Below, in pieces: positions 4,056 to 31,406 of a stretch of DNA of 32,677 bases. The stretch covers positions 1-32,677 of the forward strand of contig JACPZY010000120.1 of NCBI GenBank assembly GCA_016195215.1, in the 5' to 3' direction. The notes below the pieces were generated by a model that was not told where the DNA came from, ran no database searches, and was given only the letters and a program-made list of their open reading frames with translations. This stretch comes from Actinomycetota bacterium. GTDB taxonomy: Bacteria; Actinomycetota; Actinomycetes; Nanopelagicales; Nanopelagicaceae. Position numbers and translations under genes: made by a program. Position 1 is the first letter of the stretch; every line of letters starts with the position of its first letter.

Positions 4056-4615
4056 TCAATCGTTGGGGATCTTCGAATAGATAATCAAGTCATGACGACC
4101 CTTGCTCGTAAATCCCGCGTTTCTCGCGATTCCTTCACGGACGTAGCCGGCTTTCGTGGCAACTCTTTGAGAGGCAAAATATTTCCCGGTGCCACTCTCA
4201 CTTCAAGTCGCTGAAATCCAGTTTCCAGAATGATCCAGCGCGAGAGTATAACTAAGGCTTCAGTTGCAACACCTTTGCCTCGAGCCCAAGGCGAAGTCCA
4301 ATAACTTATCTCACATGACTTGCCGCGCCATTCCGCTCTCTTTATATCAATCACGCCTGCAAATTGTCCGTCGAGGTCAATGGCGCTTACTAGTCCAGTG
4401 CCACCCTCCTGTCTTTGGGTGGCGAAATCTAAAATGAACCATTGAGCGTTTTCGGTTGTATAAGGGAAAGGCAGAGGAAACCATTTTTGCATTTCATCAT
4501 CGTTGCCTGCAGTGAAGATGGCTTCTTGATCAGATAATGTTAATGGCCTTATGACGATTGAACCCGAGACCAAAGTGCAGGAGTCGAATTTTTGATCGGT
4601 CTTCATGTAGCGCAA
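4056..4615 (-). pseudogene. GNAT N-acetyltransferase with a -1 frameshift
   Basis: ORF 4085..4615 reads a RimJ-like GNAT up to RLEVRVAPGN. In another frame ASQRVATKAGYVREGIARNAGFTSKGRHDLIIYSKIPND* continues to 4056. Consistent with loss of one T in the TTTT run near 4178-4181. Confidence 0.75.
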
Positions 4616-17579: not shown

Positions 17580-18932
17580 CTATTCGTGATCGAGATGCAC
17601 GTAGGCCACCGCCTCAATTGCTTTGGGATTCTTTGACTTGAGGTACACCAATGCGGCAATTCCCATAACCATCCAGCCGGCCATAAAGTAAGCAGAATAG
17701 GAGAGGGGGGCCGCAAGTGGCACTATGAACTTCAGTCCAGGTATTCCAGTAAATCCGGCGGCGCTGAAGAAACCGGGAATCAAGAATAAGACGCCAACCA
17801 TTGGAATAAGGATGTGTATAACTGGGTGGCGCTCATCTCTACGATGTTTAGCAAAGTAGCCGATGCATGCGAAGTTCGACACGATGTAAACAAGGACAAC
17901 GATAATAACCAGTCCTGTCGCAACCACTCCAAAGGCAAGCTGCGGGGTGTATTTGAAGCCAAGTCCCAAGCCAATGATTAATCCGAGGATTAATTGGAGG
18001 ACAATGGCGTTGCGGGGAGATTTGAACTTTGGATCTAGTTGAGCTAGAGAGCGTGGGAAGGCACCTACCCGACCGAAAGCAAATGCGGTTCGAGTGAATA
18101 CGTTTGCACCTGCGTTGGCGTTTGCCAGAGTCGAGTTAATAATTGCAAAGAGAACAAGTAACCAGAAGAGTGTGGAGATACTCTTCGCGAGTCCATCCCA
18201 CGGTACTCCGTTATTGTAACTTGCAAAGGATTTAAATTTATCTGGCCCAAATGAAACGGTTGCTGCATAAGTTGTGAAGGCGTAAAGAACGCCAATAGAA
18301 ATTGTTGCGATCATTATTGCGCGAGGAACATTTCGACGGGGATTTTCAGCTTCTTCTGCCAAAGGCGCCGCTGCTTCAAAACCAGAAAAAGCCAAGAGGG
18401 TAAAAACAGATCCAGCGATCACGCCTGACCAGCCTGAGAATCCAGGGGCATTCGCATGTGAAGTCGTAAAGACAGAAAGCGTATTTGCGCTGCCGGCCTT
18501 TATTACAAGTACAACTGCTACAAGGGTAAAAACTGTAATTTCAATGAAACCTAACCAGGTGCCGACCTTGGCAGAGGTACGGATACCGCGCCAAACAAGT
18601 CCGCACACTAGCAAGGTTCCAAGGGTGGTAAATATCCACCAAGCGCCTATCGGGAATGATTTCTGCTCAGAGTTCCATTCACCCGCAACGGTATAACCGA
18701 GTTGCAACATAACAAGCGGCATTCCAATAAAGGCAACTATTACTGCAAGGGGTAGTGCGCCTCCAGCCAGTGGCGATCCAAAAGGAATTGATGCGGCTAT
18801 TGCTGCTCCAGGAGCCATAGAACAGATTGATTGAAATACAACTTCACGCAATCCAATCGCGTTGCGCTCCAAACGAGGTACAGGGTTAGAAGTGCTCAAC
18901 TTTCTCTCCTTCTTCTGATTTACCTTCATCAA
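17580..18932 (-). CDS. APC superfamily amino acid permease
   Basis: LREVVFQSICSMAPGAAIAASIPFG..., FSGFEAAAPLAEEAENPRRNVPRAI. Confidence 0.88.
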   Translation of the reverse strand: MMKVNQKKERKLSTSNPVPRLERNAIGLREVVFQSICSMAPGAAIAASIPFGSPLAGGALPLAVIVAFIGMPLVMLQLGYTVAGEWNSEQKSFPIGAWWIFTTLGTLLVCGLVWRGIRTSAKVGTWLGFIEITVFTLVAVVLVIKAGSANTLSVFTTSHANAPGFSGWSGVIAGSVFTLLAFSGFEAAAPLAEEAENPRRNVPRAIMIATISIGVLYAFTTYAATVSFGPDKFKSFASYNNGVPWDGLAKSISTLFWLLVLFAIINSTLANANAGANVFTRTAFAFGRVGAFPRSLAQLDPKFKSPRNAIVLQLILGLIIGLGLGFKYTPQLAFGVVATGLVIIVVLVYIVSNFACIGYFAKHRRDERHPVIHILIPMVGVLFLIPGFFSAAGFTGIPGLKFIVPLAAPLSYSAYFMAGWMVMGIAALVYLKSKNPKAIEAVAYVHLDHE

Positions 18933-25334: not shown

Positions 25335-28182
25335 ATGGGTGCTGTGTCCAAGGATCGAGCGCCTAAGGAAAAAGCGGCAGTAGTGGGCGCACTCAAGCGA
25401 CGACCCTTAGAGCAGGTAAGTCACGAGTTCACCGAAGATCAGAAGCGGGTCATTTCCCACCGTAATTCACCGCTCGTCGTTTTAGGTGGACCCGGAACCG
25501 GGAAAACAACTCTTCTTATTGAATCCGCACTCGCACGGATTAATGAGGGGCAAGATCCCAATTCAATTCTGATGCTGACCTATGACCGTGAGAGAGCGTC
25601 AGAACTCCGTGATGCTGTTGCACTCCGCACTACCTCCATCATGCACGAACCGATCGCCAGGACTTTTCACTCCTTGGCATTCTCCATCCTTAAAATGAAG
25701 GCTCATCCTGATGCGTCAGATCCAATTCTTATGTCAGGCGCCGAGCAGGAATTTTTCATTCGTGAATTGATCGATGGTGATATCGCAAGTGGGAAAAATT
25801 ATTGGCCGAGCGATCTTGATAAGGCACTTTCAACAAATGGTTTTGCCCGCGAACTCCGTGATCTGATTTTGCGCGCCTCCGAACGCAATCTCTCACCCGA
25901 CCAACTCCGCGCTCTGGGCAGAGAGAGTGGAGAGAAATACTGGGAGGCCGCATCTGTATTCTGGAAGCAGTACCTCGACATCTTGGATCTTCAGGCCGAT
26001 TCCGCCGCGGATGCCAAACGACGGATCGATCCCAGCCAGATTGTTGCAGAGGCATATCGCCACCTCAAGGCCAATTCCGTTCTTGCAACCGACCTTCGTT
26101 CTCGCTTTCTCACAATCCTTGTAGATGAATTTCAAGAGAGCGACCCTGCCCAAAGAGCACTTCTTCGAGAACTTGCCAGTCGCGACATAGTGATCTGTGC
26201 CGACGGAGATAGCGCCGTCGGGAGATTTAGGGGCGCAGACCCAGATCAATTGGCTGTCGAGTTGGATTTCTATCAATCATCTGGCGAGAGGATTCTTCTT
26301 CACCACGAATTCCGAAGTTCATCCAATGTATTTAAGGTAGGCGAGCACGTGGCCTCAGCATTCACGGGTAGTGCTCCACAACGGATCCGTATCTGCACGA
26401 GTCCGAATAGGAGTGAGGAAGAGGCAGGAGTTCTCCTCGGACGGTTCCGCTCGCAGAGCGAGGAGGCTCAGTACATTGCCTACCAATTCCGCTATGCGCA
26501 TCTGATTGAGAAGAAACCATGGAGTGAAATGGCCGTCATTCTCCGTGCCCCAGGCGTGCAGGCCGCGGCGCTGCGCCGTGCATTCTCTCAATCGGGAATT
26601 CCCGTGGCATCGCAAGTCGAATCACTCTCACATAATCCGACGATTTCGCCATTCCTGCTTCTTGCGCAGATCGCCCTCAACGATGCGCCGCTCAACCTGG
26701 AGAACTGCGAACGGCTACTTCTGTCGGAGTTTGGAGGTGCCGACTCCGTATCTCTGAGGAGAGTTCGAAGAGCGCTTCTGGGGGCGCGGTCGGATGAGGA
26801 TCAGCGAACGGGTGCACAATTACTGATTGATGCCGTTGAAGACGGTGATAATGCAATTGAGGGGGCGCAATCCCTGCAGCGAATTCACGATCTCCTTTCG
26901 CGCGCACGGAAAGTACTCCGACGCCAGGGTGCGCAGGGCGAGGATCTCCTCTGGGAAATTTGGAGCAATGCATTAACAAGTGACGGCTCTAAATTGAGCG
27001 AGAGTTGGCGAAGGCAGGCACTTCGGGGTGGAGCACGGGGAGCCGCCGCTGATCGCGATTTGGACGCGATGATGCAACTCTTTGAATCCGCAAGAAGATT
27101 TGCAGAACGGTTCCCGCATTCAAAGGCGGATAGTTTTATCCGGCAGATTAGCCAGGAAAGTATTTTGGGGGATGTCATCACCGCACAGGGGCAACGACCA
27201 GATGTTGTCGAGATTCTCACCGTTCACTCTGCGAAAGGCCGCGAATGGGAGGTTGTTGCGGTTGCGGGATTGCAAGAAGGGACGTGGCCAAACCTTCGCC
27301 AACGCGGATCGCTCCTGGGTAGTGAGCGTCTGGTAGAAGTAATGAGGCATGGGGTTCTGGCACGGAAGGAGTTGGACGCCCTCGCGGCTAGTGGACTTGC
27401 TGAGGATGAGAGGAGACTTTTCTATGTCGCAACAACGCGCGCAAAATCCCGACTTATTATTACCGCGGTTTCCAAGGAAGATGATGAGCCATCGACTTTT
27501 TTTGAGGAGAGTGAACTTCTCGTCAATACTGCTGCTGATGCAACTGATGAAAAGAGAGGCAGAGCGCTAACCCAAGTGCCTCGACCGATCACTCCGGCAG
27601 CATTGGTGGCGACACTTCGCCGCGAACTGATGGCCAATAGTCCGACGGCGGGATCTCTGCTCAAACGTCTATCGGATGAAGGTTTATCTGAGGCAAATAT
27701 AGATACATGGGCAGGAGTTCTGCCGATCAGTAGCGATGATCCAATTGTTCCTGCAGGAAATCTAGTCTCCGTCTCGCCCAGTAGCGCTGAGGGATTTACC
27801 GAGTGCGGACTCAAATGGTTTCTCGAACGTAGTGGCGGCAGTAATGGTGATAGTACGGCCCAAGTGCTCGGTTCGGCGATTCACGCATTTGCCGCACTGA
27901 TGGAGCAAGATCCTTCACTTACCGAGGAGGAACTTTGCAGAGCAGCACCCGAGTCGCAAGAGTGCAGGTGCAGAGTTGGTTTACCTGGGCTCCAAGAGCA
28001 AAGAGGCCTCAGTTCGTCGGCAGCCGTCTGTCGATGCGGGAGAGATCAGAAATGAAATTCAAGTTATTGCAGAAGGAATGGGCGGAAGTATTTTTACTGC
28101 GACCCTTAACGAACGCTGTGGCGGTTGCCAGGTTCGAAATGCCTGTCCGATCCAGAGTGAGGGCCGGACGGTGATCGGATGA
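25335..28182 (+). pseudogene. adnA: AdnA-like UvrD/REP helicase-nuclease subunit, nuclease core deleted and frame broken
   Basis: Walker A GGPGTGKTTLL, VDEFQESDPAQ, TVHSAKGREWEVVAVAG, FYVATTRAKSRL. Frame breaks at ~27925-27945. The downstream frame (AEQHPSRKSAGAELVYLGSKS...ERCGGCQVRNACPIQSEGRTVIG*) ends at 28182 in an ATGA overlap with adnB. Confidence 0.8.
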
Positions 28183-31100
28183 GTCAGAAAATTCGTTACT
28201 CTCCCGAGCAGATCGCAGAGCGCCTGCGATCTATCGACAACAAGATGCGTATGCCATCGAGCGAACAGTCCGCGATAATTCGCGCGCCACTCGAACCAGC
28301 AGTTGTCATCGCTGGCGCTGGATCCGGCAAGACAGAGACGATGAGCGCTCGCGTTCTCTTCTTGATTGCCAACGGATTGGCAAAACCGGATGAGATTTTG
28401 GGTCTTACCTTCACCCGAAAAGCTGCGGGGGAGCTCGGAGTTCGTATCCGCAGAAGGCTAAGGCAGCTACGTGATCCAAAACTTGGAATGGATATTCCAC
28501 GCGGAGAGCCCGTGATCATGACCTACCACTCTTATGCAGGCCGTCTTCTCAACGAGCATGCGATCCGCTACGGAATCGACGCGAGTTCCGATCCAATCGG
28601 AGAGGCGGCGATATGGCAGATGGCCGCCAGAATTGTGAGCAATTGGCCCGATGAGGATTTCAGCTCCGAAAGTGCCTTAAGTACGGTTATTTATGACGTT
28701 ATAGGACTCTCACGGATGATTCTTGAGCATATGACATCTCCGGATGAGATCAGGAAAGTATCTGGAGATTTGTTGGCCCAACTTGAAGGACTAGGGACAA
28801 AATCGAACGATACGGTTCGCACGGTTCAGAAAGTCCTTCAGCAGCGAATTTCAATTCTTCCCATGGTCGAAGAACTCATATCGACTCGTCAGAAGAATGG
28901 CGAACTCTCCTTTGATGATCAAATGTCACTCGCCGCTCGCATCGCGATGGAGATTCCAGAGGTCGTTGAGATAGAACGAGCTAAATACAGAGTTGTATTA
29001 CTTGATGAGTATCAAGACACTTCTCAATCTCAAGTTCGGATGCTCTCCTCTTTATTCGGAGATGGACACGCGGTGATGGCAGTTGGCGATCCCTGCCAGG
29101 CAATCTACACATGGCGGGGTGCCTCTGCCGGAACCATTGGTGCCTTTGCGAAAAATTTCCCCAATAAGTCCACTAAGAGTGGAGCAGAGAGTTCGCTTCA
29201 TTTCTCACTTCCGATCACTTATAGAAATGACGAAATTATTCTTCAACTTGCAAACACCGTCTCCGAGCAGATTCGTGAGGGAAGCCCTGTTGAGGTCCTT
29301 CCACTAGCAGCAAGACCTGGAGCTGGAGCCGGAGAGTTGGCCTGTGGAATTTTTGAAACCATAGAGGGAGAGGCAAAGGGAATCGCCGAGTATTTCTCTA
29401 ACCTCTGGTCTGACCCCGAACGTATGAGCAAGGATGAGAAGGATCGAACATCCTTCGCCGTTCTTGTACGGAAGCGCTCGCAAATTGCAGAAATTGAATT
29501 AGCGCTCCGCTCTGAGGATATTCCAGTCGAAGTCCTGGGCGTTGGCGGTCTCGTAAATGTCGCTGAAGTGGCAGATGTAATCTCGCTCCTGCATGTCATT
29601 ACCAATCCAGATGCAGGTGCATGGCTGATGCGTCACCTCACTGGGCCTCGTCTCAACTTAGGCGCCTCGGACATTGCCGCCCTCGGGCGATTCTCTCGCT
29701 CACGATCGCAGGTGCAGAGAACAACATCCAAGGCTCTCGTCGCCAAGATCGTTCAGGGAAATCCCCTCCGCGAAGAGGCAGATGACCAGTTCTCTGGAAG
29801 TCTCATCGACGCGGTAGATGAAATAGCAAAGGCCAACGCTGATAATTTCACCAGAGAGGGTCTCTTGCGTCTCACGCATTTTGCGGCAGATCTTAGCCGC
29901 CTCCGATCTCGCGCTGGTGGACCGATGACCGATCTAGTCTGCGAAATAGAGAGTTACCTCAACCTCGATGTAGAGGTGATGCTCCGTGACGGAACCGAGA
30001 ATGGACGTCGACACCTCGACCGCTTTATGGATGAAGTTGCGAAGTTCTCTCGAAGTGGAGGAACAATCTCCGACTTCCTCGTATGGCTAGATGTGGCATC
30101 TTCAGAAGAAGGCGGGTTGAAATCCGGCACTCCCGAAGTTCGCCGAGACGTTGTTCAGATTTTGACGATACATACTGCAAAGGGTGCTGAATGGGATGTC
30201 GTGTCCGTGCCTGGATTGGCAAAGGGGAATTTTCCTGCCAATGGACAGAAAAGGGATAACTGGCTTACTAATGAGGAGCACATTCCATTCTCGCTTCGGG
30301 GTGACAACCACGAACTGCCGACTTTTGATATTTCTCAGTGCACGACAAATACGGAAGCAAAGAAAGTATTTGACGCATTTGCACTCGAGTGCAATCAACT
30401 CAGGCACGATGAGGAAATTAGATTGGGATATGTCGCGATCACGCGGGCGCGGACACATTTAATCTGTACGACCTCACGGTGGAGAGATGGAGTAAATCCA
30501 GTTGAACCAAGTGAGATCTACGATCTCGTTGCTCAGACTGCTCAGGTTTATGGCGGAGTGATTCTCGCGGATGCCCCAACTCCTCAAGTTGATGACCAAA
30601 AGCCAGCCTCTGAGAATCCACAGTCCGCTCTCTGGCCTCGCGACCCATTGGGTGAGCGTCGTGCATCATTTGATGCGGCAATAGAGTTAGCTCGCAGAAG
30701 CCCCGCGCACTCTCTTGGTACTGAAGTGGTCGAGGATGGAGAGTTAGCCGATAGCGAAACCATTAAGTCATGGATTCGCGATTCCCAGGCCCTCATCAAT
30801 GAATTACATGAGAGCAAAGAGCGAGCAGATGTTCTTCTTCCTCCGAGGCTCTCTGTTTCTACGCTCGTCGCTCTACGCGAGAATCCGGAGGAATTGGCTC
30901 TCGCGATAAGAAGACCGATGCCCCGTCCGCAGGACGAATTTTCGCGTCGGGGCACTGTTTTTCACCTCTGGGTCGAGAAGTATTTTGGCCAGGGCACACT
31001 CTTCGATGATGAAGACTTAGATCCAATTGATCCTCTCGAATCGGACCAGACCCTTGAAGGACTGAAGAATAAATGGCTCTTCAGTGAATGGGGGGATCGC

Positions 31101-31406
31101 CGGCCCTACGCAGTTGAAGTTCCATTTGAAAGCGTCCTGGCCGGAGTCCTTCTACGCGGTCGTATCGACGCTGTGTATAAGGATGGTGCCCGATATGAAG
31201 TGGTGGATTGGAAGACAGGATCAAAACGGTTAGGTGAATCTGCCACTATCCAGTTGGCGATGTATCGGTTGGCCTGGGCAAAATTGCAGAATATAGACCC
31301 CTCCCTTGTCAGCGCTGCCTTTCACTACGTTCCAACTGGCGTGACGGATCGACGTGCTGATTTACTGGATGAAGCTGGACTGATTGCTCTTCTAGACGAG
31401 CACTGA
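28179..31406 (+). CDS. adnB: AdnB-like UvrD/REP helicase-nuclease subunit
   Basis: VIAGAGSGKTETMSARV, LDEYQDTSQSQ, GDPCQAIYTWRGAS, TIHTAKGAEWDVV. Intact nuclease motif GRIDAVYKDGARYEVVDWKTG...QLAMYRLAW. Confidence 0.88.
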   Translation: MSQKIRYSPEQIAERLRSIDNKMRMPSSEQSAIIRAPLEPAVVIAGAGSGKTETMSARVLFLIANGLAKPDEILGLTFTRKAAGELGVRIRRRLRQLRDPKLGMDIPRGEPVIMTYHSYAGRLLNEHAIRYGIDASSDPIGEAAIWQMAARIVSNWPDEDFSSESALSTVIYDVIGLSRMILEHMTSPDEIRKVSGDLLAQLEGLGTKSNDTVRTVQKVLQQRISILPMVEELISTRQKNGELSFDDQMSLAARIAMEIPEVVEIERAKYRVVLLDEYQDTSQSQVRMLSSLFGDGHAVMAVGDPCQAIYTWRGASAGTIGAFAKNFPNKSTKSGAESSLHFSLPITYRNDEIILQLANTVSEQIREGSPVEVLPLAARPGAGAGELACGIFETIEGEAKGIAEYFSNLWSDPERMSKDEKDRTSFAVLVRKRSQIAEIELALRSEDIPVEVLGVGGLVNVAEVADVISLLHVITNPDAGAWLMRHLTGPRLNLGASDIAALGRFSRSRSQVQRTTSKALVAKIVQGNPLREEADDQFSGSLIDAVDEIAKANADNFTREGLLRLTHFAADLSRLRSRAGGPMTDLVCEIESYLNLDVEVMLRDGTENGRRHLDRFMDEVAKFSRSGGTISDFLVWLDVASSEEGGLKSGTPEVRRDVVQILTIHTAKGAEWDVVSVPGLAKGNFPANGQKRDNWLTNEEHIPFSLRGDNHELPTFDISQCTTNTEAKKVFDAFALECNQLRHDEEIRLGYVAITRARTHLICTTSRWRDGVNPVEPSEIYDLVAQTAQVYGGVILADAPTPQVDDQKPASENPQSALWPRDPLGERRASFDAAIELARRSPAHSLGTEVVEDGELADSETIKSWIRDSQALINELHESKERADVLLPPRLSVSTLVALRENPEELALAIRRPMPRPQDEFSRRGTVFHLWVEKYFGQGTLFDDEDLDPIDPLESDQTLEGLKNKWLFSEWGDRRPYAVEVPFESVLAGVLLRGRIDAVYKDGARYEVVDWKTGSKRLGESATIQLAMYRLAWAKLQNIDPSLVSAAFHYVPTGVTDRRADLLDEAGLIALLDEH

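Follow-up and report, generated by a model that had tools for sequence, protein, structure and literature searches.

Does the adnA-like gene on this DNA encode a DNA-repair enzyme subunit that has lost its nuclease core, or was the core dropped when the sequence was put together? The window, by which we mean the whole stretch of 32,677 nucleotides that was analysed, comes from a draft genome of 2.05 Mb in 228 contigs (G000). An earlier note on it had left two readings side by side, a one-nuclease AdnAB in the strain and an assembly error. Read as biology, the gap would suggest that AdnAB can work with one nuclease. We compared the locus with 20 congeneric genomes, one genome per species, among which the nearest congener (G016; 2.04 Mb, three contigs) served for the detailed alignments. 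The comparison makes an assembly error the most likely cause of the adnA gap, in preference to a novel type of repair enzyme.

Results

Anatomy of the adnA gap

The adnA-like open reading frame runs from 25335 to 28055 on the plus strand and encodes 906 amino acids; the features of the locus are collected in Table 1. Its N-terminal UvrD-type SF1 motor is well recognized (Pfam UvrD-helicase, 5.8e-38; UvrD_C, 2e-27), and its best solved relative is AdnA (6ppj_A, 3.4e-107). The alignment with this chain stops at residue 847, and the nuclease region of G016 aligns further along it, to residue 1042. The match to the AdnA family ends after PSLTEEE(L), at EEE 27932, and the translation of the reading frame as assembled closes with 40 residues unrelated to AdnA. 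Family sequence picks up again in the +1 frame at 27934 (TTT GCA GAG CAG CAC CCG, reading FAEQHPSRKSAGAELVYLG...), and this frame stays open to a TGA at 28180–28182, which overlaps the adnB ATG at 28179. The earlier note had correctly named the +1 frame and the ATGA overlap with adnB, but had placed the re-entry point four codons too late. Alignment with adnA of G016 (L003; an intact frame of 1085 aa), a comparison with relatives that the note had itself proposed, sized the gap: 18 nt stand in place of 353 nt, a net loss of 335 nt. This is one base short of 112 codons, which accounts for the frameshift, and falls within the 100–200 codons that had been estimated. The two adnA pieces are not chance matches, because the 5′ piece shares 82% and the 3′ piece (G016 residues 1004–1084) 73% identity with G016 AdnA.

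The missing segment holds the part of the PD-(D/E)XK nuclease that is responsible for catalysis, with, in the wording of G016, the motifs GVEVEF, GNVDRLE, VVDFKTG, and QMQAYQL. A complete C-terminal RecB-like nuclease with the catalytic Asp, DxK, and QxxxY motifs is therefore absent from AdnA as assembled. The Pfam model PDDEXK_1 (247 positions) is matched over positions 2–62 in the adnA reading frame and 178–247 in the tail, the middle being absent. The Fe-S cysteines are all kept in the DNA, the first in FTECGLKW and the last three in CGGCQVRNACP, and are split over two reading frames, so no one protein carries the four-cysteine ligation set. The earlier description thus holds in its main parts: both ends of the Fe-S nuclease domain, with the first cysteine and the last three, are present, and the segment with the D-x-K and QL..YQL motifs is gone. 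The statement that AdnB keeps its nuclease motif was likewise borne out by intact matches to the motor and to PDDEXK_1. The adnB-like gene lies directly downstream in the overlapping arrangement, as in an operon, and in synteny with G016.

The sequence at the junction, GAGGAGG AA CTT TGC, resembles a prfB-type site, with a Shine-Dalgarno-like stretch followed by a CTT that could re-pair to TTT. A programmed +1 frameshift there would rejoin the tail, and the shift needed is indeed +1 exactly at CTT. We find this reading scarcely credible. The pattern stems from EEEL codons that were there already, and these are followed by TGC in place of the TGA stop by which the prfB shift is driven. The nearest match to such a site that was inspected in the genome is not a prfB site, and the product would still be without the catalytic core.

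Table 1. Features of the adnAB locus and of a second excision in the window
Feature	Position	Strand	Evidence
Amino-acid permease, 48 codons (144 nt, in frame) absent at ~18720	17580..18932	-	Alignment with two family homologues (L189, L190)
adnA-like 5′ part, intact (UvrD-type motor and start of the nuclease domain with the first Fe-S Cys)	25335..27932	+	82% identity to G016 AdnA; Pfam; 6ppj_A
Apparent deletion junction GAA CT/TTGCAG (slash marks the join), +1 shift, net 335 nt absent relative to G016	27932..27936	+	Alignment with G016
Ancestral-frame adnA 3′ end with the last three Fe-S Cys, stop overlapping the adnB start (ATGA)	27934..28182	+	73% identity to G016; constrained coding pattern; PDDEXK_1 178-247
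Out-of-frame end of the open reading frame, unrelated to AdnA, stop at 28055	27936..28055	+	Translation
adnB-like gene, full length, motor and nuclease motifs GRIDAV, VVDWKTG, QLAMYRL	28179..31406	+	Pfam UvrD-helicase, UvrD_C, PDDEXK_1

Elsewhere in the window, most of positions 1–20200 is unmatched at the syntenic location of G016 and forms a variable region, with genes for a sugar ABC transporter, a LacI-type regulator, a permease, and a formamidase-type protein; a conserved block adjoins it from 20210 onward. A GNAT acetyltransferase gene (4059–4615, minus strand) changes frame near 4166–4175 relative to G016 through a 2-nt difference, giving an unrelated C-terminus.

The nuclease core in relatives

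The missing segment is conserved in the genus. In all 20 congeners adnA is intact, with a match that spans essentially the whole 245-residue nuclease region and contains no stop, and alignment of representative congeners displayed all of the nuclease motifs. The truncation, whose conservation in sister genomes had been suggested as a check, is accordingly not shared: no second genome with the truncated form was found among these congeners. DNA and protein searches of G000, in which some short contigs read as N, did not find the missing core elsewhere. The sole other gene in G000 with a full PDDEXK_1 match is a separate RecB-type gene, encoding a stand-alone PD-(D/E)XK protein (C93 408–1520; 371-aa frame), and similar genes occur in G016 and G035.

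Beyond the genus, four genomes of genus g17 (G036, G070, G081, and G091) and one of genus g13 (G032) contain no PDDEXK_1 gene and no motor of AdnA or AdnB type, only UvrD-type motors of other lengths. These five genomes are 92–99% complete, and sister genera have adnAB; an AdnA nuclease match was also not found in further g17 genomes. Genus g17 has thus apparently lost the DNA-end resection enzyme as a whole, as judged from the four genomes examined.

Loss of AdnAB is evidently tolerated in the family, at least in this one genus and in the single genome of the other, and together with the clean junction within syntenic DNA this would fit a real, very recent deletion of 335 nt in the population. 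Such a deletion would have inactivated adnA by frameshift, leaving a pseudogene or a strain variant picked by the assembler; AdnA would then have its motor domains but no nuclease, and with translation stopping at 28055 the translational coupling to adnB would be weaker. We consider a real deletion unlikely, given that adnA is whole in every congener and that four other equally fresh excisions would be needed in about 255 kb, one of them frameshifting the sole sucD copy (see below).

Age of the lesion

Between the window and G016, synonymous change approaches saturation (pS 0.71–0.76). The out-of-frame adnA tail contains no stop, and its substitutions follow the pattern of coding DNA under constraint, with a nonsynonymous difference from G016 (0.164) no higher than that of an intact pair (0.25, G016 vs G015). 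The lesion should therefore be far younger than the split from G016, and an old pseudogene was rejected because the tail is undecayed. Judged by these substitutions, either the deletion would be very recent or it never took place.

Substitutions in the part of adnA that encodes the motor likewise indicate normal evolution. This and the intact AdnB would fit a functional AdnAB in which truncated AdnA provides a motor and a scaffold and cutting is left to AdnB. We regard such an enzyme as extremely unlikely. The AdnA protein as assembled ends in the 40 unrelated residues, with the first Fe-S cysteine parted from the other three; no examined relative shows this form, and the lesion shifts the frame and is too young to show selection for truncation. 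In addition, a single nuclease-site substitution in mycobacterial AdnA, D935A, was reported to make the protein highly unstable (PMC13309787), which speaks against a working subunit without the core. Of the two readings that the earlier note had left open, the one-nuclease enzyme thus has no positive support, and assembly error is strongly favored by the recurrent excisions described below. It is also highly unlikely that we are looking at a living actinobacterial lineage in which the nuclease core of AdnA was genuinely and recently lost, with both motors and the nuclease of AdnB retained and the Fe-S tail possibly reattached by +1 frameshifting. Even if the deletion were real, a working one-nuclease enzyme would be unlikely.

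Other gene-internal excisions in the draft

As a control, about 255 kb of G000 (sampled contigs and the window, about an eighth of the genome) was compared with the 2.04 Mb of G016. Besides adnA, four further clean excisions inside genes were found, in genes whose names, apart from that of the permease, were assigned by reading the sequences. A sucD gene lacks ~172 nt with a frameshift (C191, L104 16670), a glutamate-dehydrogenase-type gene lacks 279 nt in frame (C143, L091 9240), an aldo/keto reductase gene lacks 145 nt with a frameshift (C154, L101 966), and the fourth is the permease of Table 1, on the same contig as adnA and seen against the two family homologues. The sucD gene is intact in 20 of 20 congeners and present in G000 only as two broken pieces, no second copy having been found there; the glutamate-dehydrogenase-type gene is intact in each of the 17 congeners that have it. 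Lesions of the same type thus recur in unrelated conserved genes of this draft.

Under a uniform scripted criterion, three of 153 G016-to-G000 gene pairs carried a lesion (adnA, sucD, and the aldo/keto reductase), compared with none of 152 pairs on 18 contigs from other congeners; the glutamate-dehydrogenase-type lesion came from an earlier run and DNA comparison, outside this list. A looser scan of other congeners returned a 33-residue gap in the AdnA of one and a split with a net loss of 43 nt in another. The lesion scan also listed several seeming stops and minor frameshifts (L114, L121, L176, and STOP rows), which were set aside by eye as probable antisense or mis-started reading frames. 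From the partial sample, a rough figure of ~40 such lesions may apply to the whole draft.

Reading frames are intact on both sides of all five junctions, and no secondary disabling mutation was seen at the four lesions other than adnA. Five lesions undecayed on both sides are hard to explain as real deletions of different ages. Three larger clean indels on the G000 side (~570–1,320 nt) that were examined sit at gene boundaries, which would be the pattern of natural gene gain and loss, whereas the five excisions sit inside genes. Synteny with G016 continues on both sides of the adnA junction at nearly equal identity (74.3% and 73.7%), as expected for a join of neighboring pieces. The junctions share only ~0–10 nt, with no long repeat at the junction, so that repeat-mediated loss was rejected; the shared length is also below the k-mer overlap an assembler needs, and plain repeat collapse is thus not the mechanism. 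Scaffold Ns were not found in the sampled contigs with readable sequence, so any closed gap would be invisible.

Discussion

A single frameshifting excision might be a true mutation. For five excisions, all fresh, clean, gene-internal, and without decay, in about an eighth of a genome and with the only sucD copy among the genes hit, assembly joins are a far better explanation than deletions in the cell. We therefore favor, at a probability of roughly 85%, an assembly join of a kind that dropped stretches of 144–335 bases in this draft, 335 of them at adnA. Two pieces of a normal adnA, in their correct order, would have been joined and the ~335 bases between them dropped, as may happen when contig ends merge across an unresolved gap, and the organism would own an ordinary two-nuclease AdnAB. 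It is the recurrence of this lesion type across the draft that suggests a loss during assembly rather than in the cell.

Some observations weigh against an artefact. Sequence comparison indicates that this draft is not alone in having such events: relative to G000, G016 appears to lack 333 nt in frame in an accessory methyltransferase-type gene (L094 1492–2666 vs L128) and a further stretch in the gene next to it. The excess of lesions over controls is a matter of small counts, and short contigs reading as N may harbor the missing adnA core. We searched the literature for clean gene-internal assembly deletions of this kind and found nothing.

Despite ratings of 95% completeness and 1.7% contamination, the draft appears to have suffered clean gene-internal losses in several conserved genes. 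Completeness and contamination scores do not reveal such losses, and in other drafts gaps of this kind could pass for domain loss or pseudogenes.

In relation to known systems, the lesions resemble assembly deletions in metagenome drafts in being clean, gene-internal losses of 144–335 nt, confined to a single genome, in conserved single-copy genes that are otherwise undecayed. RecBCD works with a single nuclease, and a one-nuclease end-resection enzyme is thus possible in principle; the sequences give no sign of this locus evolving toward RecBCD, all examined congeners having two nuclease domains. The closest counterpart is AdnAB of mycobacteria and other actinobacteria, to which this AdnA has strong sequence matches (6ppj, 6ppr, and 7sjr, chain A). 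The locus shares with it the gene order, the ATGA overlap, the UvrD-type motors, the Fe-S cysteines, and the C-terminal PD-(D/E)XK nuclease in AdnB, and differs in that AdnA, as assembled here, is frameshifted and without ~112 codons of its nuclease core.
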